Below are positions 14,731 through 38,337 of a DNA stretch of 64,000 nt, one piece after another; the first letter of the stretch is position 1; each line of letters opens with the position of its first letter. Source of the stretch: Chroococcidiopsis sp. CCMEE 29 (lineage in GTDB: Bacteria; Cyanobacteriota; Cyanobacteriia; Cyanobacteriales; Chroococcidiopsidaceae); assembly GCF_023558375.1 (NCBI RefSeq), contig NZ_CP083761.1, positions 4,977,001 through 5,041,000 on the forward strand. Reading direction: 5' to 3'. Position numbers and translations under genes: made by a program. The notes beneath the pieces were generated by a model. That model was given only the letters and a program-made list of their open reading frames with translations. It did not search any database and was not told the origin of the DNA.

Positions 14731-14754
14731 AAGCAATCAGGGAGATAGGAGTGG

Positions 14755-14812: not shown

Positions 14813-14826
14813 CTCACGCCTCACAT

Positions 14827-16552: not shown

Positions 16553-17410
16553 TTGCTGCGACCAATGAGAAGAGTTGTCCGCAAGGCTAGTAAAGTCAGG
16601 CGCTTGCTGCCAGTGCCTGAGCTTTGGTGGGAGAAACTAGACTTACTGGGGATACTAGTGCGGCGGGAACTAGAAGCAAGATACAAAGGCTCAATTTTGG
16701 GCAATTTGTGGCCTTTGCTAAATCAGCTGTCGCAGTTACTGATTCTTACTTATGTATTTTCCATTGTACTTAGGGTGAAGCTGAGCCTGGAAGGATTACC
16801 AGCAAACAATTTTACGTTCGGACTATGGCTATTTGCCGGATTAGTGCCTTGGACAGCATTCTTAAATGGATTTTTACCGGCGGCATCATCCGTCATTAAC
16901 CAACCCAATTTAGTTAAGAAAGTAGTGTTTCCGCTGGCACTGTTGCCGTTAGTACCAGTCTGTGCTGCGTTTGTTGAAAGTTCCCTGGGATTGATGGTGT
17001 TGATTTTACTAGTGGGAATAATGACGCAGATGGTTCATATTACACTTTGGTTGCTACCACTAGTATGGATACCCCAGTTATTATTAACAGCTGGCTTAGG
17101 TTACCTAGCGGCTGGATTAACAGTGTTTCTGCGGGATGTGCCACAGACATTGGGAGTTTTGATAAATCTGTGGTTTTATGCAACGCCAATTATTTATCCG
17201 GCATCGATGATTCCAGAAGGATGGCGAGATTGGGTATTTTGGTTGAATCCGATGACGGTGATCGTAGAGGTACATCGAGACTTAATCCTAAAAGGAGAAG
17301 TGCAGCACTGGGGAGAATGGGGAGTTGCTGCCGTGGTGTCTGCAGTAGTTTTTTATGTTGGCTTACTGGTTTATCGACGTTTGCGTCCTGCATTTGCTGA
17401 CGTACTTTAG
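16553..17410 (+). CDS. ABC-2 type polysaccharide export permease (Wzm-like)
   Basis: Membrane half of an ABC exporter for lipid-linked polysaccharide. 285 residues, about six membrane segments. LVRRELEARYKGSILGNLWPLLNQ is the cytoplasmic lead-in typical of Wzm/TagG/KpsM permeases, and FYATPIIYPASMIPEGWRDWVFWLNPM is their conserved late loop. Start: TTG at 16553 has AGGA 8 nt before it; an ATG at 16565 lacks a well-spaced site. Its ATPase partner is at 18237, separated by a Uma2-type gene. It opens the 26-kb glycan cluster. Confidence 0.93.
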   Translation: MLRPMRRVVRKASKVRRLLPVPELWWEKLDLLGILVRRELEARYKGSILGNLWPLLNQLSQLLILTYVFSIVLRVKLSLEGLPANNFTFGLWLFAGLVPWTAFLNGFLPAASSVINQPNLVKKVVFPLALLPLVPVCAAFVESSLGLMVLILLVGIMTQMVHITLWLLPLVWIPQLLLTAGLGYLAAGLTVFLRDVPQTLGVLINLWFYATPIIYPASMIPEGWRDWVFWLNPMTVIVEVHRDLILKGEVQHWGEWGVAAVVSAVVFYVGLLVYRRLRPAFADVL

Positions 17411-18236: not shown

Positions 18237-19667
18237 ATGGGTGAAGAAATTGCAATTTCTTTGAAGCATGTCTCAAAGGTATATAAACGATATGCCCGTC
18301 CGGTGGATAGGTTGAAGGAGATCTTGCTACCAGGAAAAAGTAGAGCAGATGAATTTTGGGCACTACGAGACATCAGCCTGGAAGTTCCAAGGGGACAGAC
18401 AATAGGAATTTTAGGGCAAAATGGTTCTGGCAAAAGTACGTTATTACAAATTATCGCTGGCACATTAACACCAACAACAGGTGAGGTAAAAGTTAATGGT
18501 CGCCTTTCAGCGTTATTAGAACTAGGTAGTGGCTTCAACCCAGAATTTACTGGAAAACAAAATGTTTTTTTTAATGGCAGAATGTTGGGGCTGAGTCAAG
18601 AAGAAATTGAAAATAAATTTGATGAAATTGCTGCCTTTGCTGATATTGGAGACTTTCTAGACCAGCCAGTTAAAACTTATTCCAGTGGGATGTATGTTCG
18701 ACTAGCTTTTTCTGTTGCCATTAATGTTAATCCAGATATCTTGATAGTAGATGAAGCACTAGCTGTTGGTGATGCTCGATTTCAGCAGCGCTGTATGACG
18801 CGGATTAATCAATTACGTAATGAGGGTGTTTCTATTCTATTTGTTAGTCATGATGCTGATGCAGTCAAGCGCCTGTGCGATCAAGCCGTTGTTCTGGAAA
18901 AAGGTAAAATAGTCAACCAAGGTTTGGCACTGCAAATGGTAAATTGGTATCTTGCATTAATAACTGTAGATTTTAACTTAGAAAAGTTACGTGAAATTGA
19001 GGAATCATCAAAAAAACGAGATGAATTGCTGCCACTACAAGCGAATGGGAATGATTTAGAAGCAATAAATGCATTAAATTTGAATGAAAGAAGTAGTAAA
19101 AGTCAGCTAAATAGCTTTACTAAGCAAATGGCAGTAAGTGATAAAAAGTCTGATTTTGAAAAGCTTAATGTTAATAATAACTATGCAAGCTTGCCAGAAT
19201 TTAAATATTTTCGTCACGGGGATGGTAATGCCAGAATTAAAAATATAATACTCAAAAACAGTCAAGGTCAAGAGGTTGATTATGTTTACTTAGGGGAAGA
19301 AGTCAAGGTTTATGTTGAAGTAGAATTTTTGAGTAACCAGCATGAGTATCTAATTGGTATTTTGGTGCGAGATAGGCTAGGTACAGATATTGTTGGCATT
19401 AACACTTATCAAGAAAGACTGCAGTTGCCTAAGGTAGCTAAAGGCGAAAAATTTTTCTATTGTTTCAGTTTTCCTATTCATATCAAGCCTGGGGCTTATA
19501 GTATTTCACCTTCAGTTGCTTACGATCAATATAGTTTAAAATGGCTTGATTGGATTGATAATGCTTTAGTATTTCGCGTAATAGATATGGAAGCAAAACG
19601 AATGGTTTTTGGAATTTATCATCCACCAAATAGAGATTTAGAAATTATTAAAGTAGCTGAAGGATGA
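18237..19667 (+). CDS. ABC transporter ATPase (Wzt-like) with C-terminal glycan-binding domain
   Basis: 476 residues. The ATPase domain has Walker A GQNGSGKS (60-67), signature YSSGM (148-152, the usual variant in O-antigen and teichoic acid exporters), Walker B ILIVDEALAVGD (168-179) and the H-loop FVSHD. A linker rich in Lys/Ser/Asn (about 235-315) leads to a beta-sandwich (about 320-470, with VKVYVEVEF and FSFPIHIKPGAYSIS) like the Wzt C-terminal domain that reads the end of the polysaccharide chain. That tail implies a chain-terminus checkpoint, so the methyltransferase next door may cap the chain (inference). Confidence 0.94.
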   Translation: MGEEIAISLKHVSKVYKRYARPVDRLKEILLPGKSRADEFWALRDISLEVPRGQTIGILGQNGSGKSTLLQIIAGTLTPTTGEVKVNGRLSALLELGSGFNPEFTGKQNVFFNGRMLGLSQEEIENKFDEIAAFADIGDFLDQPVKTYSSGMYVRLAFSVAINVNPDILIVDEALAVGDARFQQRCMTRINQLRNEGVSILFVSHDADAVKRLCDQAVVLEKGKIVNQGLALQMVNWYLALITVDFNLEKLREIEESSKKRDELLPLQANGNDLEAINALNLNERSSKSQLNSFTKQMAVSDKKSDFEKLNVNNNYASLPEFKYFRHGDGNARIKNIILKNSQGQEVDYVYLGEEVKVYVEVEFLSNQHEYLIGILVRDRLGTDIVGINTYQERLQLPKVAKGEKFFYCFSFPIHIKPGAYSISPSVAYDQYSLKWLDWIDNALVFRVIDMEAKRMVFGIYHPPNRDLEIIKVAEG

Positions 19668-19756: not shown

Positions 19757-20788
19757 ATGGATATGAAAAGTAATGTTAGTTATTATAATGAATATTATTT
19801 TGCTCATTGCTGCGGTACCCCTTATCAACATAATGAAGAATGGCTGCACTTTTTTGATTCTATTGCCGAGCGGCTCGTTAAAGATATTTGTCCTAAAACT
19901 GTGTTGGATGCTGGCTGTGCCATGGGGTTTCTAGTAGAAACCCTGCGGCAAAAAAAGGTTGAGGCATGGGGGGTAGATATTTCGGAATATGCAATTCAAA
20001 AAGTAAGCCCGGCTATTCAGCCTTATTGCTGGGTAGATTCCGTAACTAAACCTTTTCCAAGAAAATATGATTTGATTGTCTGTATTGAAGTGTTAGAACA
20101 CCTACCTCCCCAAGAGGCAGAACAAGCAATAGCTAACTTTTGTCAGCACACAGATGATGTTTTGTTCTCATCGTCTCCATTTGATTACAAAGAGGCGACT
20201 CATTTTAATGTGCAACCACCCGAATATTGGGCAGAACAGTTTGCTAAACAGGGCTTTGTACGAGATGTAGATTTTGATGCTTCATTCATTACTAGTTGGG
20301 CAGTACGGTTCCGCCGCAATTATGAACCGTGGCATCGAGTACTTAGAGGTTATGAGCGTAAATTCTGGTTGCTGTGGCAGGAGAATCAAGACCTACGTAG
20401 TTCTACAGTAGAGCTGCACAGTCAAATATCATCTGAGGAAAAATCGCTACAGGCAACAAATGCACGAGTAGAAGATTTACAGTCCCAACTGCAACAAACA
20501 CAGGCAGAACTAGAGCATTCACAATCTCAGCTGCAGCAAACTCAGGAAGAACTAGAGCGATCGCAATCCCAACTGCAACAAACTCAAGTAGAACTAGAGC
20601 GATCGCAATCTCAACTGCAACAGATGCAGGCACAACTGGAGCATTCACAGAGTCAAATACAGCAAACTCAGGCAGACTTGCAACAAGCCGAGGCTACCAT
20701 TGCTGGAATGCAGACGAGTAAATTTTGGAAGTTACGGACAGCTTGGTTCAAGCTTAAAAGAGGCATGGGGAGAGCAACTGATGGGTAA
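19757..20788 (+). CDS. SAM-dependent methyltransferase with C-terminal coiled coil
   Basis: Class I methyltransferase (residues 1-215): motif I VLDAGCAMGFLVE (49-61), WGVDISEYA, and IVCIEVLEHLPP as motif IV. From about residue 215 a long coiled coil includes five 14-residue units (SQLQQTQxELExSQ, DNA 20483-20692). It ends with IAGMQTSKFWKLRTAWFKLKR, a tail shared with the next protein. A coiled-coil methyltransferase beside Wzt recalls chain-capping WbdD-type proteins, where the coil acts as a length ruler; that analogy is inference. Its last 8 bp overlap the next gene. Confidence 0.87.
   Translation: MDMKSNVSYYNEYYFAHCCGTPYQHNEEWLHFFDSIAERLVKDICPKTVLDAGCAMGFLVETLRQKKVEAWGVDISEYAIQKVSPAIQPYCWVDSVTKPFPRKYDLIVCIEVLEHLPPQEAEQAIANFCQHTDDVLFSSSPFDYKEATHFNVQPPEYWAEQFAKQGFVRDVDFDASFITSWAVRFRRNYEPWHRVLRGYERKFWLLWQENQDLRSSTVELHSQISSEEKSLQATNARVEDLQSQLQQTQAELEHSQSQLQQTQEELERSQSQLQQTQVELERSQSQLQQMQAQLEHSQSQIQQTQADLQQAEATIAGMQTSKFWKLRTAWFKLKRGMGRATDG
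20483..20692 (+). repeat. Five tandem 42-bp units encoding a coiled coil
   Basis: Each 42-bp unit encodes 14 residues (two heptads) with consensus SQLQQTQ-x-ELE-x-SQ. Unit starts are 20483, 20525, 20567, 20609 and 20651. Two units contain GCGATCGC (HIP1). The copy number could vary between strains and so change the length of the coil. Confidence 0.85.
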
Positions 20789-23393
20789 TGGATCTGAGGC
20801 AGAACAACTACGAACTCAACTACGCACAAACCAGCTGGAATTGGAGCAATTGAAATCCCAACTCCAAGCTACTCAGGCGGAAGTGGCGCGATCGCAAGGC
20901 ACGATCGCTGCTATGGAAACCAGTAAATTTTGGCAGGCACGTCTAAAGTGGTTCAAGGTAAAGCAAAAATTTCAGCAACTGCTGCAGAAAAATTCCCCAC
21001 CCGCTGCACCTACGTCTATCGTCACACCGCCTTTAGACTATCCACTCCCACATCTAAGCTTGCCTCGGCATATCCCCCAACGTCCGAAAGTTCTGCTAAT
21101 TGTGGAGGAGAGTATTCCCCAATGTTTTCGTTATCGAGTGCAGCAAAAGTTAGAACAGTTGCAAGTTCTTGAGTACGAAGCGAACTGGATTTCTTGGCGT
21201 GACCATATCACTACTCGCACGCTGCTGCACTTTTGCCACATTGTAATCTTTTACAGAGTGCCAGCATTTGCTGAGGTAATTCATACGATTAAATATGCCA
21301 AAGCTCTCAAAAAACTCATTTTTTTTGACATAGACGACTTGATATTTAACGGCGATGCTTATCCTCCGCCACTTGAAAGTCTGAGTGGACAGATTTCAGT
21401 CGAGGAATACAATGGGCTAGTCCAAGGAGTAGCACTTTACCGAGAGGCTCTGTCTCTTTGTGACTATGCGATCGCTTCAACACCGACCTTGGTAAAAGAG
21501 ATGGAGCAAGTGACTGGTAAGGGAACTAGCTTTTGCCATCGTAATGCGATCGACAATGCGATTTTACAATTTGTGCACTCAGGTTTCCCCAAGCTACAGC
21601 GAGATTATCTTTCAATTTTCTACGGAAGTGGTACTAAGACCCACGATGCAGATTTTCAGGTAGTAGCGTCGGCTTTGGCAAGACTTATGGAAAAACACCC
21701 ATACGTCCGACTGACGATCATTGGTTATCTGTCATTGCCGGATTCGCTGACACCTTATATAGATCGGATTGACCGCGTGGGATTACTCAGTAATGTAAAT
21801 GTCTATTGGGAGTTTCTGTCACAAGCTGATATCAATATTGCACCGCTAAAGCAAGAACTTTTTAATGACTGCAAAAGTGAAATTAAGTGGATGGAAGCTG
21901 CTGTCCTAGGTGTTCCTTCTGTCGTCAGTGGCACTCAAATGTATGTTGAGGTGTTGCAGGACGGTGTAGATGCGATGATTGCCTACACCCCGGAAGAGTG
22001 GTTTGATAAACTTAATCTCTTAGTCAGCAATACCGAGCTGCGTTGTGCCATTGCTCAGGGAGCTCAGGAAAAGGCTCGTCGAGACTATAATCCACTTGTG
22101 ATGGCGAACAATCTGAAAAATATTTTGCACTCAGGTATGCAAAAAGCTGCATCTGCTGGGCAAATTGTATTATCAGAGCCTAAAAAGAAATTGCTATTTG
22201 TGAATGTTTTGTATCCTCCCCAAGCGCTGGGGGGTGCAACTGGTCTTGTAAAAAATATTGTGGATACTCTCATAGCCAAGTACGGCGATCGCTATGAGAT
22301 TTCTATCTTCACCTATGACTTGGAAAACCCGAAAGCCTACGAACTATTTGAATATACCCATGATGGTGTCCACGTTACCAGGCTTAGCTTACCACCATGG
22401 CCGGATATAGATTGGCGATATCAAGATCAGCGGGTTTATGACCTATTTAGCCAATATTTGACCTTTAATCAACCTGACTTAATTCATTTTCATTGTGTTC
22501 AGAGATTAACAACATCAACGCTCGAAGCAGCAATCAACCTTAATATTCCCTATATTGTTACCCTGCACGATGCTTGGTGGATTTGTGATCACCAATTTAT
22601 GCTTGATAAAAATGGAGTAGAGCGCGATTACCATCAAAACGATCCGTTAGTTGTTGCCCGTTACGCGGATGATATTAATAGTTCTATCTTGCGCCGTCGC
22701 TATTTGGCAAAATGCCTCAACCACGCCAAGGTACTGCTTGCCGTTTCCGAGTTTCAAGCGGAATTGTATTGTCTGAACGGCTTTACTCAGGTGCAGGTAA
22801 ACCGCAATGGCATTCTGCCTCAACCAGTTCTACCAAGAACACCTGCTGCAAATAGAATCCGCTTAGGCTACGCTGGTGGCATTTGTGTACATAAAGGTTA
22901 TTACTTTCTCAAAGAAGCGATTCTAGCTGCCGATCTTCGTAACAGTGAGTTAACTGTGATTGATCTGTTCGTAGCACCAGGTTCTGCAACACGGCATGAA
23001 ACTTGGGGAAGCACTCCAGTTAATTTTATCCCTAAGCTGCCACCAGAGAATATGCCAGAGTTTTATAGTCAGATTGATGTTCTCATTGCCCCTTCATTAT
23101 GGCCAGAAAGCTTTGGTCTGATTTCGCGTGAGGCGATTTTAGCAGGGGTATGGGTAGTTGCTTCAAATAAAGGAGGTTTAGCGGAAGATATACGTCCAGG
23201 TGTTGATGGAGATGTATTTTCGCCACATCATATTAATGAATTAGTAGCTATTCTGAAAAAACTAGAGCGGGAACCAGAAAGCTATCAGCAGCAGGTAGCG
23301 GAAGCTAAATATATTAGAAGAATTGACGAGCAGGTTAGTGAATTGGAAAGTATCTATGATACTATCCTTAACCAACAAAAGGTTTTTGCTTGA
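20781..23393 (+). CDS. Double GT4-type glycosyltransferase with N-terminal coiled coil
   Basis: About 870 residues from ATG 20781, which overlaps the methyltransferase stop (20786-20788). Residues 1-55 are a coiled coil with the tail motif IAAMETSKFWQARLKWFKVK. Two GT-B units follow: the first (from RPKVLLIVEESIPQCFRYRV to ARRDYNPLVMANNL) includes FYGSGTKTHDADF, and the second (from KKLLFVNVLYPPQALGGATG) has LHDAWWICDH, GYAGGICVHKGY and a GT4 donor-site motif SLWPESFGLISREA. It probably adds two sugars in sequence. The frame is open further upstream to TTG 20700, but that would lie inside the methyltransferase gene. Confidence 0.9.
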   Translation: MGNGSEAEQLRTQLRTNQLELEQLKSQLQATQAEVARSQGTIAAMETSKFWQARLKWFKVKQKFQQLLQKNSPPAAPTSIVTPPLDYPLPHLSLPRHIPQRPKVLLIVEESIPQCFRYRVQQKLEQLQVLEYEANWISWRDHITTRTLLHFCHIVIFYRVPAFAEVIHTIKYAKALKKLIFFDIDDLIFNGDAYPPPLESLSGQISVEEYNGLVQGVALYREALSLCDYAIASTPTLVKEMEQVTGKGTSFCHRNAIDNAILQFVHSGFPKLQRDYLSIFYGSGTKTHDADFQVVASALARLMEKHPYVRLTIIGYLSLPDSLTPYIDRIDRVGLLSNVNVYWEFLSQADINIAPLKQELFNDCKSEIKWMEAAVLGVPSVVSGTQMYVEVLQDGVDAMIAYTPEEWFDKLNLLVSNTELRCAIAQGAQEKARRDYNPLVMANNLKNILHSGMQKAASAGQIVLSEPKKKLLFVNVLYPPQALGGATGLVKNIVDTLIAKYGDRYEISIFTYDLENPKAYELFEYTHDGVHVTRLSLPPWPDIDWRYQDQRVYDLFSQYLTFNQPDLIHFHCVQRLTTSTLEAAINLNIPYIVTLHDAWWICDHQFMLDKNGVERDYHQNDPLVVARYADDINSSILRRRYLAKCLNHAKVLLAVSEFQAELYCLNGFTQVQVNRNGILPQPVLPRTPAANRIRLGYAGGICVHKGYYFLKEAILAADLRNSELTVIDLFVAPGSATRHETWGSTPVNFIPKLPPENMPEFYSQIDVLIAPSLWPESFGLISREAILAGVWVVASNKGGLAEDIRPGVDGDVFSPHHINELVAILKKLEREPESYQQQVAEAKYIRRIDEQVSELESIYDTILNQQKVFA

Positions 23394-23417: not shown

Positions 23418-24335
23418 GTGAAAAGCTTCAAAGTCGCAGCTTATATTACTGCTTATGAGGATGATAGAGCGGTTGAAGCTTGTGTTACGGCTCTGAAGAA
23501 GCAGTCTTTTCCAGTTGACAAAATTTTTATTGTAGATAACTCTGTTAGCCAGCCAGTTGTGCTGCCAAACTATGAAGATGTAATAGTTGATAGTCATCCT
23601 GAAAACTTAGGTGTTTCGGGTGGCTTAAGATTAGGAATCAAGTGGGCAATTGAGCAAAACTATGATTTTTTATGGGTTTTCGATCAAGATAGCCTCCCCA
23701 CCGTCAACTGCCTTGAAGTGCTGCTAAAAGTCTACAAAGATTTATCTCAGCCTAATTATCAGCCTGGGATTATAGCACCTACTCCTATTGATACCAGGAC
23801 TAATGAAGTTGTGGAAGGTGCAGTATTTGAGCGCGATCGCTTTATTGCCTGCCAGCATACTCAAATTCAACCATATGAGTGCGAGGCTCCCATTACTTCT
23901 GGCTCTCTCATATCTATAGCGGCTGCTAAAAGTATTTCTTTGCCTTGTCCAGACTTATTTATTGATGGAGTTGACTTTGAATATGGACTGCGATTAAAGC
24001 AACAAGGTTTTTATAACCTGATTGTCCCTCAAGCCATCCTCTATCACAAATTCGGCAATCCGATTAAAGTTAAACTTTTACAAAAAGAGCGAGTCATACA
24101 CAAATACACAGCTTTACGCTACTACTATATGTTGCGGAATCACACTTATCTAGAGTCTCGCTACGCCCAAGGATGGTATCGCTTAAGCAGTTGTTTGTAC
24201 CGCACTAAGTATATGCTCCGTACTATAGTGGTAGTTTTGCTGTATGACCCTAAAGAAAAGGGATTAAAAATATGGGCTTGTCTTAGAGGAACGTATCACG
24301 GCTTGGCAGGTAAGCTTGGTAAGCAATGGCATTAA
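23418..24335 (+). CDS. GT2-family glycosyltransferase (rhamnosyltransferase-like)
   Basis: 305 residues, GT-A fold. VAAYITAYEDDRAVEACV, FIVDNSVSQP, NLGVSGGLRLGIKWA and the metal-binding FDQDS (DxD) are typical of WbbL/RfbN-like rhamnosyltransferases; GVDFEYGLRLKQQGF follows. This fits with the dTDP-rhamnose genes further on. Start is GTG at 23418; an ATG 2 nt earlier is out of frame. Its end overlaps the next gene by 10 bp. Confidence 0.9.
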   Translation: MKSFKVAAYITAYEDDRAVEACVTALKKQSFPVDKIFIVDNSVSQPVVLPNYEDVIVDSHPENLGVSGGLRLGIKWAIEQNYDFLWVFDQDSLPTVNCLEVLLKVYKDLSQPNYQPGIIAPTPIDTRTNEVVEGAVFERDRFIACQHTQIQPYECEAPITSGSLISIAAAKSISLPCPDLFIDGVDFEYGLRLKQQGFYNLIVPQAILYHKFGNPIKVKLLQKERVIHKYTALRYYYMLRNHTYLESRYAQGWYRLSSCLYRTKYMLRTIVVVLLYDPKEKGLKIWACLRGTYHGLAGKLGKQWH

Positions 24336-24970
24336 ACATGAAGGATGAAGCTCATCAACCAGATAAATTAGCGCTACTGTCATTCTGGCTGATACTGCCT
24401 GTAGTAATAGTAATGCTGACATGGCTTGGCTTTAACGGTATCTTCCACTACTATGCACCCTATGGCAGAGCTGTAACATTTCCAGTGGCTAATCTTGACG
24501 AACCACTAGACAGAGTAACTGCTGTTGAGGTTTGGGATCAAACTAACGTGATACAGCCATTTGTGGCTGAGATAAATGGCTTAGGAAGAATAGATTTTCA
24601 AATTTTTGCTTGGAGAAATCAGTCCCACTCTCATGCTGTATTTTGGCACTTAAGTGAGATTGGCAATGATGGCACAAAAATTCTCAAACGCAATGGTAGT
24701 TTTCCTGCCAATAGGGTAAAAGATCGAGAATCTGTGTCACTTAAGTTTCAGCCTATTGTTGATAGTGCTTGCAAACGCTACGAAGTGTTATTTTCTACTG
24801 CTGGTACTCCTCAATCGGAAAGTATGAGTTTTCCTATTTACAAAACACAGGCTCGTCTCATACCTGAAGTCATGTTCAGAAGCGATTTAGGGAATTTAAA
24901 AGAAGTACAAACGTATCCCCAAGGTGCTTTAAAAGGTTTAATCTATTACTTTTACGAGAGGTTTGGTTGA
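24326..24970 (+). CDS. Single-pass membrane protein with one beta-sandwich domain (copy A1), unknown function
   Basis: 214 residues. One membrane helix (about 18-40, FWLILPVVIVMLTWLGFNGIF), then an outward-facing beta-rich domain with VTAVEVWDQ, IQPFVAEINGLGRIDFQIF and SVSLKFQPIVDSACKRYEVLFS. It is clearly related to the larger protein at 28171, which has the domain twice. The QxF..NGL..IdfQ..tw pattern resembles sugar-binding-like domains seen in membrane glycosylation proteins, but I assign no function. It overlaps the GT2 gene by 10 bp; ATG 24338 is an alternative start. The next gene starts within its stop codon. Confidence 0.8.
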   Translation: MALNMKDEAHQPDKLALLSFWLILPVVIVMLTWLGFNGIFHYYAPYGRAVTFPVANLDEPLDRVTAVEVWDQTNVIQPFVAEINGLGRIDFQIFAWRNQSHSHAVFWHLSEIGNDGTKILKRNGSFPANRVKDRESVSLKFQPIVDSACKRYEVLFSTAGTPQSESMSFPIYKTQARLIPEVMFRSDLGNLKEVQTYPQGALKGLIYYFYERFG

Positions 24971-26412
24971 TGGCAACTCTATCAAATCTCACACAAGCAT
25001 ATAGATTTCCGGTTGATTTGCTTAACCGTCATCCTGTACATCAGCGGTTAGCCTTATTCTTAGTCTGTTTTGCCACATCATTTCTAATTTTCTTTTTCCG
25101 AAACCCAGACCCGTTTATAAATCCTGTATTTTACACAGAGGATGGTAGAGATTACGTGGGTCGAATTTTGAGCCAAGGATTTTGGTCAGCTTTATTCCAT
25201 GCTCGTCCTGACTACTTCGTGTTTGGCAATATACTTTTGACAGGAATTGCGTTAGTAGTAAACAATCTTTTTTATTCAGATAGCATTTTATATTTACCTC
25301 AAACTATTGCTATTATTTCTTATTTATTTTATGCGTTTGTGACGACTTTACCTATATTGTTGTTTGCCGACAGAATTAAAACATCATATCTAATTGCTCT
25401 TGCTTTAATATCTACCTTTTTTCCGCTTCATTCTTCTGATTTTGAAGTACTTGGAAGAATTTCTAATGTTGGCTATGCCTTTATTTATATAGCCTTCCTT
25501 TTAATTGCCTATCGGATATTTTTCGCAAGTAATCGTCTTACTATAGCAATAGACTTATTAATACTAATATGTGCAAGTACAAACCCTGTCGTTTATCTAA
25601 TATTTCCTGTAATTTATCTTCCATATTTAAAGCAGTATTTTATTGACCGAGTTCCTTTATATCGTATTTTTAAAAATCATTCTTTTTTAAGCGCGGTAGT
25701 TCTTGGCACTATCGTATTGTTACAAATAAGCACAATTACGACGACAGGTTCTGGTCTGAACTCGATGGATGTACCATTTGATTTTTCTAATGCTATCGAG
25801 ATGCTTATTGCTAGATCAATGCTTTATCCTGTAATTTACTCTATTTACACTCGTATGAATGACCTGATCGTTATTTTGCTTTTTGCAATTATTATTATTG
25901 GTTTTATTCGGCTTGGAAACAAAAATAATTATGGTTTATATATTTTTGGATTTTACTCTTTAGTTACTCTTACAATCAGTGCAGCACGTTTTAGACCTGT
26001 ACTAAGCAGTGCCTTAAATAATTACTCAACTACCTGGCCTGACCGATATTATTATGGACAAAATCTACTAGTAACTTTTCTCATAATACTTTTGTTCAAT
26101 GATATTTCTGATCGAGTAAAATTACCTTCTGTTCGTAAAGCTTTGCTAGTAGGGATGCTAGTTATATTCTTAGCAGACTTACAAAAGATATCAACTTACG
26201 GTCAACCAGCTTCTTCACTCAGGGAAATAGGGAATTTTGAGCAAACTTTAGTAGCTGCATTAAAAGAAAAAGAAGCCTTAAGTATTAATGATGAATTAAT
26301 TGAACTGCCAATCTACCCGCCACCAACCTGGAAAATGACTATTCCTAGAGACTTAGCTGAAAAGTCTGCAGCAAGAGGGAAACTGATAAAGATACTGGAT
26401 AAGTGTTCGTAA
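24970..26412 (+). CDS. Polytopic membrane protein (copy B1), possible GT-C glycosyltransferase
   Basis: About 480 residues with eleven or more hydrophobic segments. The loop after the first membrane segment is FRNPDPFINPVFYTEDGRDYVGR; acidic pairs in this first outer loop are the catalytic hallmark of GT-C enzymes, so a lipid-linked-sugar transferase is plausible but unproven. It is paralogous to the protein at 29313 along its whole length (shared IFFFRNPD, FINPVFYTEDG, GRISNVGYAF, MLIARS, EIGNFEQTLVAAL and IPRxLAEKS). Start ATG 24970 overlaps the stop of A1 (ATGA). Confidence 0.8.
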   Translation: MATLSNLTQAYRFPVDLLNRHPVHQRLALFLVCFATSFLIFFFRNPDPFINPVFYTEDGRDYVGRILSQGFWSALFHARPDYFVFGNILLTGIALVVNNLFYSDSILYLPQTIAIISYLFYAFVTTLPILLFADRIKTSYLIALALISTFFPLHSSDFEVLGRISNVGYAFIYIAFLLIAYRIFFASNRLTIAIDLLILICASTNPVVYLIFPVIYLPYLKQYFIDRVPLYRIFKNHSFLSAVVLGTIVLLQISTITTTGSGLNSMDVPFDFSNAIEMLIARSMLYPVIYSIYTRMNDLIVILLFAIIIIGFIRLGNKNNYGLYIFGFYSLVTLTISAARFRPVLSSALNNYSTTWPDRYYYGQNLLVTFLIILLFNDISDRVKLPSVRKALLVGMLVIFLADLQKISTYGQPASSLREIGNFEQTLVAALKEKEALSINDELIELPIYPPPTWKMTIPRDLAEKSAARGKLIKILDKCS

Positions 26413-26445
26413 AGGCTGCTTAAGCTAAATGGAGTGTTGGGAAAA

Positions 26446-27840
26446 ATGCAACTATATAAGGTTTCTTGGAAACAAATTTATGAAAATCCTGAAAAAGCAT
26501 TTCTTATAATAGGATTAATTTTCGGAATTTTATTTTTGCTAGTTGTACCTCCATTTCAAGTTCCTGACGAACCTAATCATTTCTTTAGAGCTTATCAACT
26601 TTCTGAAGGTGAGATTATAGGAGAAAAACAAGATAATAACGCTGGAGGGTTAGTGCCAAAAAGCTTAGTTGATTCTATGCTACTTTGGAGCAACCTCCCA
26701 TTTCACCCGGAGCAAAAAACAACAAGCAAGCAGTTTATAGAAGCACTTAATATTCCTTTAGAACCCCAAAAAAATACTTTTGTTGGTTTTCCCAACACAG
26801 TCCTATATAGTCCAGTTGCATACCTTCCTCAAGTATTAGGAATAGCTCTGGGAAAGTTGTTTTACTTGTCTCCCATAGTCTTAATGTACCTAGGAAGACT
26901 AACCAATTTAATTGTTGCAATATATATAACGTTTCTAGCAATTAAGATTACACCAGCTTTTAAGTGGGTTTTCTTCCTACTGGCTTTAACTCCAATGGCG
27001 ACTTTTCAAAGAGCGTCATTATCGGCAGACAGCTTGATTAACAGCATATCTGTTTTACTACTTGCTCTACTATTTAAGTATGCCTTTGATTTAAATAAAG
27101 CCAAAATAGGTAGAAGTGATATTGGTGTCTTATTTATACTCAGCCTGTTATTATCTTTATCTAAGCAAGCTTATTTCCTGGTTCCGTTTTTGTGCTTTTT
27201 AATTCCACCAGCTAAGTTTGGTAGTCAAAAAAAATACTGGGTTGTGTGTTCACTTTTATGTTTAACGAGTGCGATCGCCTGGATTCTTTGGTCTTTTGTT
27301 GTCAAAGATGTTTATGTTCCACTCAGACCTGATGTAGCAATAGCTAATGAACAAGCACGTTTTGTCTTATCAAATCCTACAAAATTTGCTGTTATTGCTT
27401 TCAATGATTTTAATGCAAGCCTGACTGGCTACCTCAAGCAATTTATTGGAGTATTGGGTTGGCTAGATACGCTCCTTCCTAACGTGCTGACATTCTCCTA
27501 TCCAGCAGTACTGTTGTTTACTTCGCTGATTGATAGTCACGCTAATGTTATCGTTCCCCTGCAAGCCAAGCTAAAAGGTTTTGCCGTATGGTTTGCTACT
27601 ATTTTTTTAATCTACTTACTTTCTTATTTTACTTGGACTCCGGTAGGGCAAGCATCAATAGAAGGAATTCAAGGGCGTTACTTTATTCCAATAGCGCCGC
27701 TGCTATTTTTGCTTTTTTATAATAGAAAATTTTTCTTAAATATACATGACAGTAAACTTGATGTAGTACTTGTTTGTTACTCTTTGTTCGCTTTGGTTAT
27801 TAGCTTAATTGTACTCTTAGATAGATACTATAACTTGTAA
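26446..27840 (+). CDS. DUF2142-family polytopic membrane protein
   Basis: About 464 residues, ten or so membrane segments. VVPPFQVPDEPNHFFRAYQLSEG near the N-terminus is the DUF2142 signature: it lies after the first helix and has an acidic motif (PDEPNH) in the position where GT-C enzymes keep catalytic acids. The late YFIPIAPLLFLLFYNRK also fits. Such proteins accompany surface-glycan clusters; the reaction is unknown. I start at ATG 26446 (GGAG 11 nt before); GTG 26434 is in frame. Confidence 0.87.
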   Translation: MQLYKVSWKQIYENPEKAFLIIGLIFGILFLLVVPPFQVPDEPNHFFRAYQLSEGEIIGEKQDNNAGGLVPKSLVDSMLLWSNLPFHPEQKTTSKQFIEALNIPLEPQKNTFVGFPNTVLYSPVAYLPQVLGIALGKLFYLSPIVLMYLGRLTNLIVAIYITFLAIKITPAFKWVFFLLALTPMATFQRASLSADSLINSISVLLLALLFKYAFDLNKAKIGRSDIGVLFILSLLLSLSKQAYFLVPFLCFLIPPAKFGSQKKYWVVCSLLCLTSAIAWILWSFVVKDVYVPLRPDVAIANEQARFVLSNPTKFAVIAFNDFNASLTGYLKQFIGVLGWLDTLLPNVLTFSYPAVLLFTSLIDSHANVIVPLQAKLKGFAVWFATIFLIYLLSYFTWTPVGQASIEGIQGRYFIPIAPLLFLLFYNRKFFLNIHDSKLDVVLVCYSLFALVISLIVLLDRYYNL

Positions 27841-27889
27841 GTAAGCATGGTTAGAAATTTTAAGTTAAACGACGATAAGCTCATAGTTA

Positions 27890-27942
27890 TGGCAATCCTA
27901 AATAAGTTGTGAGATGTGGGATAGGCATCTTGCCTGTGCAGG
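27890..27942 (+). repeat. Truncated copy of a short palindromic (MITE-like) element
   Basis: GGCAATCCTA followed by a GTGGGATAGGCATCTTGCCTG-type core; AGGCA and TGCCT form a small hairpin. The left end and core match the complete 67-bp element at 50389-50455, but the right terminal repeat is missing: the sequence passes straight into the relic at 27945. Confidence 0.6.
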
Positions 27943-27944
27943 CT

Positions 27945-28100
27945 GGACTTTATCTTGAACCTAACTGTAAACCAATGCTGGCACTAGATGTAGCATCGTT
28001 ACCTCCTGGTGTAATCTTTAAAATCACCAGGTGCGCTATCGTAACTCTTCAAGTATCAGAAGTAAATATACGTATATTCACGGATGTTGAGGTTGAATGA
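27945..28100 (+). pseudogene. 3' relic of an unidentified gene (copy X'), upstream of the FAD-gene fossil
   Basis: About 50 codons are open in frame (LYLEPNCKPMLALDVASLPPG, ending NIRIFTDVEVE) and stop at TGA 28098-28100, overlapping the ATG of the FAD-gene fossil. The same tail recurs at about 30998-31155 before the intact FAD gene (LYLEPNSKPMLTLDVASLLPG, NIRALMDVEAE). No start or N-terminal part exists here. I do not recognise the parent protein. Confidence 0.7.
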
Positions 28101-28162
28101 AGCAGGCAAAATATGATGCGATCGTCATGAACGATGGTATCTTTGGTTGCAAGCTGTCTTAA
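28097..28162 (+). pseudogene. Fossil of the 5' end of the FAD-dependent oxidoreductase gene
   Basis: Translation gives MKQAKYDAIVMNDGIFGCKLS and a stop at 28160-28162. The intact gene at 31153 starts MKQAYDAIVIGGGFFGCKLSLYL. The match is in frame over 21 codons with one codon inserted, and the FAD-binding GGG has become NDG. The DNA likeness runs a few bases into the start of the next gene (28171). This is a decayed duplicate, not a coding gene. Confidence 0.82.
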
Positions 28163-28170
28163 TATCTGAT

Positions 28171-29286
28171 ATGAAATACAAAACTTCTTTGTATGAAAAG
28201 TTTACACTTTTATGCCTTTGGATCTTCTTACCTGCAATTATAACTTTGCTAACCGTATTAGGCTTTAACATCATCTTTTACTATTATGCTCCTAATGGCA
28301 GACATGCAACGTTTCCGATAGCCAAACTTAGTGAATCGCCTACTTTGGTAACTGCTTCTGAAATTTGGGATCGGGTAAAGATACAACAACCTTTTGTAGC
28401 GACAACAAATGGTTTGGCAGGAATTGATGTCCAGGCAGTTACCTTTTTAAACCGTCAACGACCAGATGATGTATTTTGGCAATTGAATGAAATTACTAAT
28501 AATCAAGAAAAAATCTTGAGGGGTCAGGGTAAATTTCATGCCGATGAAGTAGACGATTGGGATTTCATTAGTCTAAAATTTGAGCCTCTTGTTGATAGTT
28601 CGTGTAAACACTATGAAATTTCATTTTCTGCTGCTGGCACTCCTCAGGGTAAGAGTATAGGCTTTCCAATTTTTAAAACTAATGATGCTATGTCACCTAT
28701 ATATTTCCCAAAAATAACTTCTGTTGTATTAGAAAAAGCAGAATTGACTAAACTTAAACAACCTCTAGATTATAGAGAAGCGCTCGCTTTGTTTGGAAAA
28801 ACACGTATCTCACAGACTTTTACAACAAAGGAGAATGGTTTAACTTCGCTTCAATTCCAGATGGTTACGTGGCATAATCGTCAGAAACCTCATGTAATAA
28901 GTTGGAAACTTTATGAGCTAAGAGGCAATGATAAGGTTCTACAAAGAGAAGGTGTTTTTGATTCTACTTCTGTAAAAGATTGGGTAAGTAATTCTATAAA
29001 TTTTACTCCAATAGAGAACAGCATAGATAAAAATTATGAACTGGTTTTTACTGCTCCCACTCAATTGGAAAAAAATGAATCAGTCGGCTTTCCACTGTAC
29101 GAAGCTTCAGACATTAACTCTTCATTCACCTATGTTCAGATAGCAGATCAGCGTTTGAGCAACAGCAAGTTAAGTATTTATCTAGTAGGGATTTATAAAT
29201 TAGACAAAACGCAAGTGTATCCTTCAGGTTCTTTGAATGCCTCCCTGCATTATTTTTATGAAAAATTTAACTTGCCAAACCAATAA
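28171..29286 (+). CDS. Single-pass membrane protein with two beta-sandwich domains (copy A2), unknown function
   Basis: About 371 residues from ATG 28171 (MKYKTSLYEK; TTG 28147 is in frame but inside the FAD fossil). One membrane helix (about 10-35), then two copies of the domain found once in A1: the first around QQPFVATTNGLAGIDVQAV to FSAAGTPQGKSIGFPIF, the second around SQTFTTKENGLTSLQFQMV to KNESVGFPLYEAS. Both copies have the L.F.P..dS..k.YE pattern. Presumably the domains face the periplasm and act with the polytopic protein encoded 26 bp downstream. Confidence 0.8.
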   Translation: MKYKTSLYEKFTLLCLWIFLPAIITLLTVLGFNIIFYYYAPNGRHATFPIAKLSESPTLVTASEIWDRVKIQQPFVATTNGLAGIDVQAVTFLNRQRPDDVFWQLNEITNNQEKILRGQGKFHADEVDDWDFISLKFEPLVDSSCKHYEISFSAAGTPQGKSIGFPIFKTNDAMSPIYFPKITSVVLEKAELTKLKQPLDYREALALFGKTRISQTFTTKENGLTSLQFQMVTWHNRQKPHVISWKLYELRGNDKVLQREGVFDSTSVKDWVSNSINFTPIENSIDKNYELVFTAPTQLEKNESVGFPLYEASDINSSFTYVQIADQRLSNSKLSIYLVGIYKLDKTQVYPSGSLNASLHYFYEKFNLPNQ

Positions 29287-29312
29287 AACAAAAATAAGGA
29301 TAAATTTAAGCT

Positions 29313-30806
29313 ATGAAGAATAATAAATTAAGCTGGAAAAAGCAGTATAGCTACCTAATTAGGTTGGTTAACAGATATCCGACATACAGGCGATTTTTTT
29401 TATTTCTTGTATGCTTTGGGATTTCAACATTAATTTTCTTTTTCCGCAATCCTGATGCATTCATCAATCCTGTATTTTACACGGAGGATGGTCAAGATTA
29501 CATTGGTCCAATATTTACTAGAGGCTTCTGGTCAACTTTTTTTACAACCCATCGGGGTTACCATACATTTGGAAATATTTTGCTCTCTGGTTTAGCAGTA
29601 GTAATCAACAATATTTTTAGAGCTGGAGACATTTTATTTTTGCCTCAAAGCATAGCCATTGTCTCATATATGTTCTATGCGCTCGTAGCAACTTTACCAG
29701 TGCTTTTGCTAAGCAACAAAATTAGATCGCATTATTTAGTGACACTTGCACTGATATCTAGTTTTTTCCCGCTCAATGGTAGTGACTATGAAGTCATAGG
29801 TAGAATATCCAACGTTGGATATGCCTTTTTTTACATAGCATTTGTTTTAGTAGCTTACCGGATTTTTTGCATAAAGCGTTCATATTTTGTTTTTTTAATA
29901 GACTCCGCACTGTTTTTATGTGCTAACACAAATCCTGTAGTTTTTCTGTTAATTCCTACGATATATATACAGTATGCAAAATCGATTTTCATCGATAAGA
30001 CACCATTTAATGTAATTCGGAAGAATCCTAATTTTATAAGTGCTATTATTCTGAGCGTTTTTTTACTATTGCAAGGGGTTAAAGTTTTTTTAGGTGGTGT
30101 AATAGATCAACAGCCAGGCTATCTGGATTCACCATTTGTCTATTCGAATGCTATAGAGATGCTTATTGCCAGGTCAATACTTTATCCAATTATTCATCCT
30201 ATATATGCTTACTTTAATGATGCCATTACTATACTAGTTTTTGCCTTTCTTATTATGGTTTTTGTCTTATTTTCAAAAAAAGCTAATTATGGCTTATACG
30301 CTTTAGGATTCTATGCATTATTTACATTTACCATTATGGCAGCCATTTTTAGACCTGGACTCAGTGAAGTTTTCCAAGATTATCAAGGAATACCAGGATT
30401 GTGGGCAAGATTTTATTATGGTCAAAATTTGCTAGCTATATTCTTAATAGTTCTTTTGTTTCATGACATTGCCTCTCGTATTAAACTACTTGCTTATCGT
30501 AGATTGCTGATGCTGTTAATGCTCGCCATTTTCTTGGTTGGGTGGTCAGGTGTATCTAGCTACGGCAATCCGTCTCATCCAATGAGAGATATTGGCAACT
30601 TTGAGCAGACATTGGTAGCTGCACTAAGTGAGAGAAGATTTGTTGACGCTTCTGGAATACTGGATACTAACGGTCGTTTTCTTGAAATACCAATTTACCC
30701 AACTAAAACAGACCATCTCTGGACAATAGTAATTCCTAGAGAACTAGCTGAGAAGTCAGTTGTCAATCAAGGAAAACTAATGAATAGCATGAGTAAATGT
30801 AAGTAA
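29313..30806 (+). CDS. Polytopic membrane protein (copy B2), possible GT-C glycosyltransferase
   Basis: 497 residues, eleven or more hydrophobic segments, full-length paralog of the protein at 24970. The first outer loop FRNPDAFINPVFYTEDGQDYIGP keeps the acidic YTEDG motif, and the C-terminal ends match (IPRELAEKSVVNQGKLMNSMSKCK against the B1 end). Gene order A2-B2 repeats A1-B1. The ATG at 29313 is preceded by AAGGAT (29296-29301). An acceptor-specific sugar transfer on the outer face is a reasonable guess only. Confidence 0.8.
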   Translation: MKNNKLSWKKQYSYLIRLVNRYPTYRRFFLFLVCFGISTLIFFFRNPDAFINPVFYTEDGQDYIGPIFTRGFWSTFFTTHRGYHTFGNILLSGLAVVINNIFRAGDILFLPQSIAIVSYMFYALVATLPVLLLSNKIRSHYLVTLALISSFFPLNGSDYEVIGRISNVGYAFFYIAFVLVAYRIFCIKRSYFVFLIDSALFLCANTNPVVFLLIPTIYIQYAKSIFIDKTPFNVIRKNPNFISAIILSVFLLLQGVKVFLGGVIDQQPGYLDSPFVYSNAIEMLIARSILYPIIHPIYAYFNDAITILVFAFLIMVFVLFSKKANYGLYALGFYALFTFTIMAAIFRPGLSEVFQDYQGIPGLWARFYYGQNLLAIFLIVLLFHDIASRIKLLAYRRLLMLLMLAIFLVGWSGVSSYGNPSHPMRDIGNFEQTLVAALSERRFVDASGILDTNGRFLEIPIYPTKTDHLWTIVIPRELAEKSVVNQGKLMNSMSKCK

Positions 30807-31155: not shown

Positions 31156-32280
31156 AAGCAGGCATATGATGCGATCGTGATTGGCGGTGGTTTCTTCGGA
31201 TGCAAGCTGTCTTTGTATCTGAAGCAATACCTGCGTCGCATTTTGATTGTAGAGAAAGAAGTTGACCTGCTGCAACGTGCTTCTTATGTCAATCAGGCAA
31301 GAGTCCACAATGGCTATCACTACCCACGCAGTATCCTTACGGGATTACGCTCCAAAGTCAATTTCCCTAAATTTATTAATGAATATCAGGATTGTGTTGA
31401 TAGTAGCTTTGATAAATACTATGCGATCGGCAAAATCCTCTCTAAAGTGACTGCCAATCAGTTTAAACTGTTTTGTCAGCGCATAGATGTACCCATTGAA
31501 CCAGCTCCTCAAGCAGTAAAAAAATTATTTAACTATACCATAATTGAGGAAGTATTTCGCACTCAAGAGTATGCGTTTGATGCTGTAAAACTAAAAAACC
31601 GAGTATTAAACGAGCTAGAAGCAGCATCTGTTGAAATTCAATTAAATTCCCAGGTTGTAAAAGTAAAAGATCTTGACAACTTGGGAATGGAAATTTTTAT
31701 TAAATCTGAAAATAATTGTGATAGTGTTACTGCAAAATACGTTTTTAACTGTACTTACTCAGGAATTAATCAAATTCTTCGAGCTTCTGACTTGCCAATT
31801 ATTCCACTCAAGCATGAATTAGCAGAAATGGCATTGGTGGCAGTACCTGAACCTTTGAAGCATTTGGGTATTACCGTTATGTGCGGTCCTTTCTTCTCGA
31901 TTATGCCTTTTCCCTCACGCGGATTACATACACTGAGTCATGTACGCTACACTCCCCACTGTTACTGGCAAGATAGTGAAGATTTTTGTGTAGATTTTGG
32001 GATTAGCCCTAGTAAAATACCACGTAAGACTAACTATCTCCAGATGGTTAGAGATGCAGAGCGATATATGCCAATTCTTAAAGAATGTCGTCATGTAGAC
32101 TCCATCTGGGAAGTCAAAACAGTTCTCCCTCAAAGCGAGGTAGATGATAGTAGACCAATCTTGTTTAAAAAAGACCAGGGAATCAAAAACTTGACTTGTA
32201 TTTTGGGCGGGAAGATTGATAATGTTTACGATATTCCTGATGAGCTCCAGTTCTTAAATAGCAAAGAGAGTTTAAGATAA
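31153..32280 (+). CDS. FAD-dependent oxidoreductase (DAO family)
   Basis: 375 residues. The N-terminal dinucleotide-binding motif is AIVIGGGFFGCKLSLYL followed by the acidic strand end LIVEKE; the mid-chain VFNCTYSG and C-terminal LTCILGGKIDNVYDIPDEL complete the FAD fold. Family members oxidise amines or 2-hydroxyacids; in glycan clusters some act on sugar-linked groups, but no substrate can be named. ATG 31153 overlaps the relic's TGA. The stop overlaps the next start (TAATG, 32278-32282), so it is co-translated with the GT2 gene. Confidence 0.87.
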   Translation: MKQAYDAIVIGGGFFGCKLSLYLKQYLRRILIVEKEVDLLQRASYVNQARVHNGYHYPRSILTGLRSKVNFPKFINEYQDCVDSSFDKYYAIGKILSKVTANQFKLFCQRIDVPIEPAPQAVKKLFNYTIIEEVFRTQEYAFDAVKLKNRVLNELEAASVEIQLNSQVVKVKDLDNLGMEIFIKSENNCDSVTAKYVFNCTYSGINQILRASDLPIIPLKHELAEMALVAVPEPLKHLGITVMCGPFFSIMPFPSRGLHTLSHVRYTPHCYWQDSEDFCVDFGISPSKIPRKTNYLQMVRDAERYMPILKECRHVDSIWEVKTVLPQSEVDDSRPILFKKDQGIKNLTCILGGKIDNVYDIPDELQFLNSKESLR

Positions 32281-33278
32281 TGGCTAATTCTGATTGCTTT
32301 GTTTCAGTCATAGCACCACTATCTAATGCTTCACGGATAGTTGAAGCATTTGTAGCTGAAGTAATGCAAGTGTTGCGAAGTAATTATGCCAACTATGAAC
32401 TTGTACTAGTTAACGATGGCTCAGAGGATGACACGTTAGATAAAGTAGCCGCAATTTTAAAAAGATATGAGTGTATCAGGCTAGTAAGCCTTTCCAGGAG
32501 TTTTGGGGCTGATGTAGCCATTTCCTCAGGACTGGATTCAGTCATCGGCGACTATGTAGTAGTTATGTTACCAGAATCCGATCCACCGGAGTTAATTCCT
32601 GGATTGGTTCAACAAGCTCAAAATGGTAAAGATATCTTACTGGGAATCAGGAAAAACCGCAATGATGAACCGATTTGGTTAAGAACTGGTGCTAGTGTAT
32701 TTTATTGGCTCTGTAGAAGGTTACTAAAAATACCACTAATCAAAAATGCTACTCAGTTCCGAGTATTAAGTAGACAAGTCGTCAATGCAATTGTGCAAAT
32801 TGAAGATAAACATCGCTACCTACGTCTACTCAGCTCTTATGTAGGCTACAGAAGCCAGACTTTCACCTATGAAGCAATCAAAAGAGCTAGAAAACCCAAA
32901 CCAAAAAGTTTCTTTGAGTTAATTGACCTAGCTTTACAGATTATCGTTGCCAACTCATCGCACCCACTGCGGTTTGCTAGTTACTTGGGTCTTGCAGCCA
33001 GTGTAGTGAACTTATTATATATCGGTTACATTATCTTGGTTTACTTGCTGAAAAACGATGTAGCAGAAGGATGGGTGACATTATCTTTCCAGCACGCTGT
33101 CATGTTTTTGTTTATTTTTATTGTCTTGACTATTTTATGCGAATATGTATGCTCAATGTTGGAGCGATTGAAAGGATGGCCAGCGTATTATGTAGCTGAG
33201 GAAAAAAATAGTTCTGTGTTAATTGCAGACCAAAAACGTCGTAACATTGTCAAAAATTCAAAAAATGTTCAAGTTTAA
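32280..33278 (+). CDS. GT2 membrane glycosyltransferase-like protein (DPM/GtrB type) with altered catalytic motif
   Basis: 332 residues. A GT-A domain (VSVIAPLSNAS, LVLVNDGSEDDT, GADVAISSGLDSVIGDYVVVM) is followed by two membrane helices near residues 240-262 and 275-300, the layout of polyisoprenyl-phosphate sugar synthases such as GtrB/ArnC. Where these have a DxD (VVMDADLQDPPE) this protein reads VVMLPESDPPE, so the metal-binding DxD is lost, and the usual PxYNE is PLSNA. It may be a non-catalytic or shifted-specificity member. Confidence 0.87.
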   Translation: MANSDCFVSVIAPLSNASRIVEAFVAEVMQVLRSNYANYELVLVNDGSEDDTLDKVAAILKRYECIRLVSLSRSFGADVAISSGLDSVIGDYVVVMLPESDPPELIPGLVQQAQNGKDILLGIRKNRNDEPIWLRTGASVFYWLCRRLLKIPLIKNATQFRVLSRQVVNAIVQIEDKHRYLRLLSSYVGYRSQTFTYEAIKRARKPKPKSFFELIDLALQIIVANSSHPLRFASYLGLAASVVNLLYIGYIILVYLLKNDVAEGWVTLSFQHAVMFLFIFIVLTILCEYVCSMLERLKGWPAYYVAEEKNSSVLIADQKRRNIVKNSKNVQV

Positions 33279-37767: not shown

Positions 37768-38313
37768 GTGAAAATTATCCCCACTGAAATCCCTGATATT
37801 CTGATCGTCGAACCCCAAGTTTTCCAGGACGATCGCGGCTTTTTCTACGAAAGCTATAACCAGAAAATTTTTACTGAAAAGATAGGATTATCAACCTGCT
37901 TCGTCCAAGATAATCATTCGTACTCCAAGCACAACGTCCTGCGCGGGCTACACTATCAAATTCAACAACCCCAAGGTAAATTAGTTCGGGCACTTGTCGG
38001 AACCATCCTCGATATTGCTGTAGACATCCGTAAAAGCTCCCCCACCTTTGGGCAATGGGTTAGCTGTATTCTCAGCGCCGAGAATAAACGCCAACTCTGG
38101 GTACCTGCTGGCTTTGCTCACGGCTTTTTAGTCCTTTCTGATGCAGCTGAAGTGCTTTACAAAACCACAGAATACTACGCTCCCCAACATGAACGCTGTA
38201 TACTTTGGAACGACCCCGAGCTAGCCATTGATTGGTCTTTGACTACCACACCCATAGTTTCCGCTAAAGACCAAGCTGGAGAATCCTTCAAAACAGCTGA
38301 AGTTTTTTCATAA
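37768..38313 (+). CDS. rfbC: dTDP-4-dehydrorhamnose 3,5-epimerase
   Basis: 181-residue cupin-fold epimerase, third step of dTDP-L-rhamnose synthesis. VFQDDRGFFYESYN, FVQDNHSYSKHNVLRGLHYQIQ (catalytic His in RGLHYQ), DIAVDIRKSSPTFGQW, WVPAGFAHGFLVLSD and YKTTEYYAP (catalytic Tyr) are all present. The start is GTG at 37768. It is followed after 24 bp by rfbD. The base composition returns to the chromosome's norm from here on. Confidence 0.96.
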   Translation: MKIIPTEIPDILIVEPQVFQDDRGFFYESYNQKIFTEKIGLSTCFVQDNHSYSKHNVLRGLHYQIQQPQGKLVRALVGTILDIAVDIRKSSPTFGQWVSCILSAENKRQLWVPAGFAHGFLVLSDAAEVLYKTTEYYAPQHERCILWNDPELAIDWSLTTTPIVSAKDQAGESFKTAEVFS

Positions 38314-38337
38314 TTATCAATTGTGGTAAATCTTCCC

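Follow-up and report, generated by a model that had tools for sequence, protein, structure and literature searches.

A duplicated two-gene membrane cassette in a Chroococcidiopsis surface-polysaccharide cluster: distant relatives of GtrV-type glucosyltransferases and a putative outward-facing partner

Introduction

A stretch of 64,000 nucleotides from Chroococcidiopsis sp. CCMEE 29 (contig NZ_CP083761.1, positions 4,977,001 to 5,041,000; hereafter the window) contains two copies of a two-gene membrane cassette, in which the gene for a single-pass protein (A) is followed by the gene for a large polytopic protein (B). What reaction might such a pair of proteins carry out, and what might the second copy add? 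A first-pass annotation of the window had put forward a two-component transferase acting on glycans at the outer face of the membrane, and knew no named system with this pairing. The latter still holds for the pair, of which no description was found in the literature searched, where most subscription journals fell outside reach; B itself, on the other hand, belongs to a named superfamily, which includes GtrV of Shigella phage SfV and the Gtr enzyme of phage SfX, periplasmic glucosyltransferases that act on O-antigen and convert the serotype. This membership extends to cyanobacteria a kind of transferase that was characterised in Shigella phages.

Two paralogous cassettes

The cassettes and the gene that lies between them are as follows.

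24326..24970, plus strand: A1, single-pass protein of 214 amino acids with an N-terminal span at residues 15-33 and one outward domain; its ortholog stands beside B in genome G403
24467..24853, plus strand: outward domain of A1, predicted beta-rich, from the alignment of A domains
24970..26412, plus strand: B1, putative polytopic GtrV/GtrX-like glycosyltransferase; its ATG start overlaps the A1 stop codon
25132..25146, plus strand: YTEDG motif of B1, predicted first outer loop, from the translation
26434..27840, plus strand: polytopic DUF2142 protein between the cassettes (PF09913, E 5.9e-79)
28171..29286, plus strand: A2, single-pass protein of 371 amino acids with two tandem outward domains
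28300..28683, plus strand: A2 outward domain 1, from the alignment of A domains
28711..29106, plus strand: A2 outward domain 2, 31.7% identical to A2 domain 1
29313..30806, plus strand: B2, putative polytopic GtrV/GtrX-like glycosyltransferase, likely positional ortholog of the G403 B protein
29478..29492, plus strand: YTEDG motif of B2, predicted first outer loop, from the alignment and translation

That the pairs 24326/24970 and 28171/29313 are paralogous in both members and keep the same order had already been noted, and the open reading frames (ORFs) and identities confirm it. In pairwise protein comparison A1 and A2 share 45% identity (E 3e-61), and B1 and B2, which are 480 and 497 amino acids long, share 52.6% over 489 positions (E 9e-173). 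A1 also aligns to the second half of A2 (35%, E 4e-29), and A2 thus holds two copies of the outward domain. In the first cassette the stop codon of A1 and the start codon of B1 share one base (TGATG). The ORFs of B1 and A2 are listed from TTG codons at 24967 and 28147, and the ATG codons at 24970 and 28171 were taken as their starts. The DUF2142 gene at 26434-27840 was absent from the account given by the first-pass annotation.

Relationship of B to GtrV and the SfX glucosyl transferase

Neither B1 nor B2 gives a significant match in Pfam, NCBIfam, PHROG or PDB sequences. A profile of five rows (B1, B2 and the B proteins of genomes G403, G594 and G602) has eight matches outside the window's own genome, five of which are ORFs of 446-483 amino acids that bear the B signature and match weakly at its EDG region: L057 (4e-5), L059 (9e-4), L061 (0.003), L063 (0.011) and L064 (0.029). 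The same eight include L058, which was read and is unrelated, and L060 and L062, which were not read. When the five B proteins and these five relatives are aligned, the only invariant columns are P47, E58, D59, G60, G71 and Y83 (E58 and D59 in B2 numbering). Three of the relatives match phrog_19534, annotated as 'glucosyltransferase' (L059 8e-46, L063 2e-5, L064 1e-17). L059 in turn led to a relative on a Pantoea plasmid, which stands third in a gtrA-gtrB-glucosyl transferase operon and compares at 62.6% with the SfX glucosyl transferase and at 35.3% with GtrV of phage SfV, which itself lies in a gtrA-gtrB-gtrV operon.

The two groups can also be compared directly. In hhalign, the B group of five sequences aligns with a Gtr group of six, none of them a B protein, with a probability of 98.55 and a score of 120.9 over 407 columns, so that B residues 21-477 lie on Gtr positions 8-422; reversed profiles score 15.8-17.7, 40 column shuffles at most 22.3, and a six-member DUF2142 group 15.1. 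B had led to one of the six Gtr rows, L059. Leaving that row out gives 97.95%, 104.0 and 342 columns, and a Gtr set of only the SfV, SfX and Pantoea enzymes gives 96.3%, 76.2 and 321 columns. Controls for the reduced Gtr set stay far lower (40 shuffles at most 23.0, Wzm 14.8, UbiA 17.6). Smaller sets give weaker alignments: the pair of solo B proteins from G594 and G602, taken alone, scores 49.9 and 43.7 against Gtr, and B scores 49.2 over 61 columns against L063/L064 and 51.7 over 159 columns against L057/L061.

Among 684 ORFs, including many repeats of the same gene in overlapping loci, a Gtr hidden Markov model (HMM) places B1 (2e-17), the G403 B protein (3e-15), B2 (4e-7) and a broken copy in G550 (2e-4) above every unrelated ORF, and in the reverse search with the B profile GtrV comes first outside the B group itself (5e-7). 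An eight-row Gtr profile, with no B or L057/L061 rows but with three rows that were found through B, matches 14 of 359 genomes of the order, including all five that bear B (4e-17, 6e-7, 5e-6, 9e-5 and 4e-4); in the window's own genome only B2 is among the matches listed. B has no profile match to DUF2142 (hhalign probability 0.10) and no homology to the 35742 protein of the window, Wzm or UbiA. These comparisons support a distant kinship, along most of the protein, between B and the periplasmic enzymes GtrV and SfX Gtr, with profile homology over 321-407 columns at about 15-17% identity; B1 and B2, at 480 and 497 amino acids, are longer than the phage enzymes (416-421).

The acidic YTEDG motif to which the first-pass annotation had drawn attention turns out to be the most conserved feature of the superfamily. 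In an alignment of 15 superfamily sequences E58 is kept in 15/15, D59 in 14/15, and Y83 and P111 in 15/15, G60 being replaced by Ala in three enterobacterial enzymes. B and Gtr have in common the R-x-P, the [WY]-x-E-D after the first span, and the GY, P-E-V and R-Y positions, and their C-terminal tails resemble each other. The signature of R-x-P, [WY]-x-E-D-G and C-terminal tail may reveal further members that are now unannotated.

Other members of the superfamily were seen in passing. Viral contigs L076 (363-1643) and L077 (5938-7218) each carry a solo GtrV-like gene, 36% to SfV GtrV, which in L076 stands near tail-like genes (by eye); no gtrA or gtrB was recognised by eye among the ORFs listed for the two contigs. 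In G207 the B-like gene has in its vicinity an ORF (L072, 3324-4700) whose first part was judged by eye to be GtrA-like.

Predicted topology and structure

Hydropathy gives A1 and A2 one N-terminal span each. For the B proteins the count depends on the cut-off: a strict setting yields eight spans in B1 and nine in B2, and a looser one 10-12 across the set of five B proteins, whose average gives 11, so that the 'eleven or more helices' of the first-pass annotation are possible at the looser setting but not reached at the strict one. In all five the EDG motif lies 14-15 residues past the first span, which agrees with the GT-C pattern, where 7-13 spans go with an acidic residue on the first outer loop, provided that this loop faces outward. 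AlphaFold models were of low confidence. The model of A2, from two sequences, has a mean predicted local distance difference test (pLDDT) value of 39.6, with low-confidence strands that recur in both domains; the single span of the small partner was borne out by hydropathy, but the beta-sandwich ascribed to its outward part was not.

Partner protein A and the distribution of the cassette

At E <= 1e-3 the B1/B2 profile matches five of 388 genomes of the order, namely the window's own genome, G403, G594, G602 and G550, and in a draw across the phylum one of 386, again the own genome. The A domain matches only two of the 388, the own genome and G403. Within the families of G403 and G594, B occurs in 1/6 and 2/50 genomes, all of them already found. 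Because the search patterns were strict, the distribution is undersampled. G594 and G602 each have a solo B of 471 amino acids, and the B copy in G550 is broken. A survey of A-B adjacency had been proposed with the first reading of the locus, and its outcome is uneven: wherever A was found it is directly upstream of B (3/3 copies), but B also occurs by itself. Strong matches to A (E 2e-69 or better), among ORFs of at least 80 amino acids from 82 sequences, are limited to A1, A2 and the G403 copy; the next best, at 3.5e-4, is the unrelated L042, which the same profile had fetched.

In G403, A again lies directly upstream of B in a glycan cluster, which has in common with the window, at 47-81% identity, the genes for Wzm, Wzt, a flavin adenine dinucleotide (FAD) oxidoreductase, a GtrB-like family 2 glycosyltransferase (GT2), a second GT2, an epimerase-like protein, a TIM-barrel protein and RmlC; the GtrB-like gene is kept at 78.6%. 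The G403 A and B proteins are nearer to A2/B2 (57.0 and 57.9%) than to A1/B1 (52.9 and 55.9%), and the oxidoreductase gene follows both A2-B2 and the G403 pair. For these reasons A2-B2 is probably the positional ortholog of the G403 pair and A1-B1 probably an extra copy. In G403 the pair is followed by a truncated oxidoreductase copy (L035, 11754-12161), two other ORFs and a full copy (14547-15671), as if this stretch had undergone a duplication or an exchange.

No relative of A is recognised, and searches of Pfam and PDB gave it no significant match. Among the three A proteins, the juxtamembrane segment is the best conserved part (9/16 identical), followed by the outward domain (54/123, 44%) and the span (9/25). 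A Pfam Toxin_R_bind_N match on A2 (E 0.0021) fell below the cut-off and was taken as chance.

The surrounding polysaccharide cluster

Both cassettes sit in a surface-polysaccharide cluster of the Wzm/Wzt type, in which three genes bear on what follows.

16553..17410, plus strand: Wzm-like ABC-2 permease of an exported glycan (PF01061, E 3.9e-22)
18237..19667, plus strand: Wzt, ATP-binding cassette (ABC) ATPase with a Wzt_C C-terminal domain (PF00005, E 1.1e-23; PF14524, E 1.6e-29)
32280..33278, plus strand: GtrB/ArnC/PgfS-like GT2, putative synthase of a polyprenyl-phosphate sugar donor (phrog_841, E 8.6e-55)

The gene at 32280, which stands 1.5 kb downstream of B2, also matches the NCBIfam PgfS model (E 1.2e-47, under that model's cut-off). 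The same cluster contains several glycosyltransferases and dTDP-rhamnose-type genes (deoxythymidine diphosphate, dTDP) at 37768-40297. The cassette genes are AT-rich, with a GC content of 0.34-0.40 as against 0.48-0.50 in three other stretches of the window.

A Uma2-family putative endonuclease gene (PF05685, 17444-18166) lies between Wzm and Wzt. Methyltransferase and glycosyltransferase proteins with QSQLQQTQAELEHS-type coiled-coil repeats are encoded at 19757-23393 and, in G403, at L035 3348-7235; the coiled coil common to the two is 60% identical over 114 residues. The polytopic proteins encoded at 35742-37673 and at L035 12106-14019 are otherwise dissimilar and have a C-terminal stretch of about 75 residues that is 45% identical.

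Proposed function and its alternatives

According to PMC11127046, Gtr enzymes belong to the GT-C class and draw on undecaprenyl-phosphate-glucose on the periplasmic face; the same paper describes a GT-C enzyme whose target is an O-polysaccharide exported by Wzm/Wzt. Since B is homologous to GtrV/GtrX and lies in a cluster of that export type, B1 and B2 are read as side-branch transferases. At the outer face of the cytoplasmic membrane they would take a sugar from a polyprenyl-phosphate donor, whose probable synthase is the GtrB-like enzyme at 32280, and add it to the polysaccharide exported by the cluster's own Wzm/Wzt transporter, with E58 and D59 of the first outer loop at or near the catalytic site. 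A1 and A2 would be outward subunits, each anchored by one helix; their likeliest role is that of a detached module which binds glycan and offers the acceptor chain to B. With two cassettes, two different side-branch sugars or attachment sites would result. The periplasmic reaction, the type of donor and the catalytic role of E58/D59 are all suggested by this kinship and context. Taken as a whole, the explanation that B proteins are GtrV/GtrX-type outer-face transferases and A proteins their dedicated glycan-binding subunits is the best one available and, in our judgement, somewhat probable. Of the outer-face transferase first suggested for the locus, the enzyme has thus gained support from homology, but not its GT-C fold.

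Several results weigh against this explanation. Single B proteins do not match phrog_19534 significantly (G403 0.099, B1 9.9, B2 and L007 none), and the link to Gtr needs profiles and intermediates, some of which were first found with B. In the Gtr HMM search the G594 B protein is marginal (0.034, the best unrelated ORF being at 0.071) and that of G602 is not among the matches listed; a five-row Gtr HMM gives the same order, with neither G594 nor G602 among those listed. In the reverse search the unrelated L058, fetched by the same profile, appears at 6e-5 amid the Gtr hits, with the unread L062 just below it. When the genomes of the order were searched with the eight-row profile, only G403 matched over most of the Gtr model, the other four over 89-144 N-terminal positions with the EDG motif. 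GtrV D380 is reported as important in PMC3259042; its column is Ile or Thr in the five B proteins, an acidic residue standing one position earlier in B1, B2 and G403 and not in G594 or G602. The AlphaFold model of B2, from three sequences, gives no evidence on the fold (pLDDT 37.4, predicted template modelling score 0.21). The window contains no GtrA match; the rest of the genome has a single one, in a GT2-GtrA fusion at a distance of 2.4 Mb. A shows no homology to Wzt_C of the same cluster, the C-terminal region of the 35742 protein, DUF2142 or the Gtr group, and three of the six B loci are without A.

The layout likewise differs from that of the known operons. In place of gtrA and gtrB directly upstream, as is canonical for gtr, the window B genes have the partner gene A. 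A GtrB-like GT2 is present in the cluster, as in gtrA-gtrB-gtr operons, but apart from A-B, and here A is added and B duplicated. For A, the nearest parallel is ORF12 (GT136) of Citrobacter youngae, which performs side-branch transfer on an O-polysaccharide exported by Wzm/Wzt and has, as is predicted for A, an outward beta-rich domain: according to PMC11127046, an Ig-like carbohydrate-binding module (CBM) fused to a GT-C enzyme, which binds the polysaccharide and was non-essential under the conditions tested. Emb proteins also carry CBMs (PMC11127046). The two cases are likened by description, and the CBM of ORF12 is fused to its enzyme whereas the outward domain in the window is a separate anchored protein. 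By this analogy A is plausible as a detached glycan-binding subunit, because its outward domain is duplicated and tied to B by overlap and adjacency and because relatives of B exist that lack it; it may be a previously undescribed accessory subunit of a Gtr-type transferase. A contact between A and B, and a part for A in the function of B, are put forward here as a proposal. A more specific version, which we hold only tentatively and with more doubt than trust, is that of a two-subunit transferase in which the acceptor-binding domain, fused in GT136 and Emb, is supplied separately and in which the branch site along the chain is set by whether the subunit has one domain (A1) or two (A2).

How far A need bind glycan at all is the point on which the alternatives come closest. 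If B is a Gtr-type transferase, A could instead be a subunit for its assembly or stability, acting through its helix and juxtamembrane segment and binding no glycan. The one-base overlap of A1 and B1 suggests coupled synthesis, and no part of A is better conserved than its juxtamembrane segment. This account fits nearly as well as that of a detached module; the conservation of the outward domain and its duplication in A2 suggest a role beyond stabilising, and distant B proteins occur without A. We regard it as rather unlikely. A different pairing is suggested by lactococci: there WpsI, a polytopic DUF2142 protein, and its outward-facing regulator WpsH are proposed to act together in polymerisation (PMC12599335 and PMC10821137; in the latter the two names are interchanged in one place). 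A polytopic enzyme with an outward partner is the same arrangement as A-B, and a DUF2142 gene sits between the two cassettes, so that A-B might be a polymerase or chain-length pair and not a side-branch transferase. Here too WpsH is likened by description; WpsI is a DUF2142 polymerase and B is not a DUF2142 protein, which weakens the parallel, and Wzm/Wzt pathways polymerise in the cytoplasm (PMC11127046). Of all the readings we give this one the least credence. Only slightly less improbable is that B puts the superfamily fold to some other use, such as transfer to lipid or protein, or transport, A being merely co-inherited. The solo B-like genes of G594 and G602 lie outside any glycan cluster obvious by eye from their ORF lists, as this would lead one to expect; in both genomes that have A-B cassettes, by contrast, these stand in a glycan cluster in synteny with a GtrB-like gene.

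If the explanation by outer-face transferases with glycan-binding subunits is right, A would provide a removable handle on how the acceptor is found, a question that fused modules make difficult to address. Changes of side branches on cyanobacterial O-polysaccharides would be a likely route of escape from phages or grazers.

Further searches and minor observations

The two-row B alignment found no relative in the genome contig collection, and the five-row alignment found one locus there, L039 from Hydrococcus rivularis, with its match placed as in G602. There was no relative of the B alignment among viral contigs, no plasmid match with B2, L007 or L063, and no phage match with L064; a plasmid match to A2 at E 4 was treated as chance. 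Weak A matches in nine more genomes (10 loci) were sampled by eye at three loci, L042, L049 and L052, which encode two response regulators and one recombinase, and these were set aside as chance. Weak B matches above 1e-3 occur in 27 genomes; L010, the one that was read, appeared by eye to be a transporter-like protein and was likewise ascribed to chance.

DUF2142 was present in 3/30 genomes searched, the window's own genome counted. A tandem pair of DUF2142 genes was found at G387:C105:48240-50953 (L070, L071).

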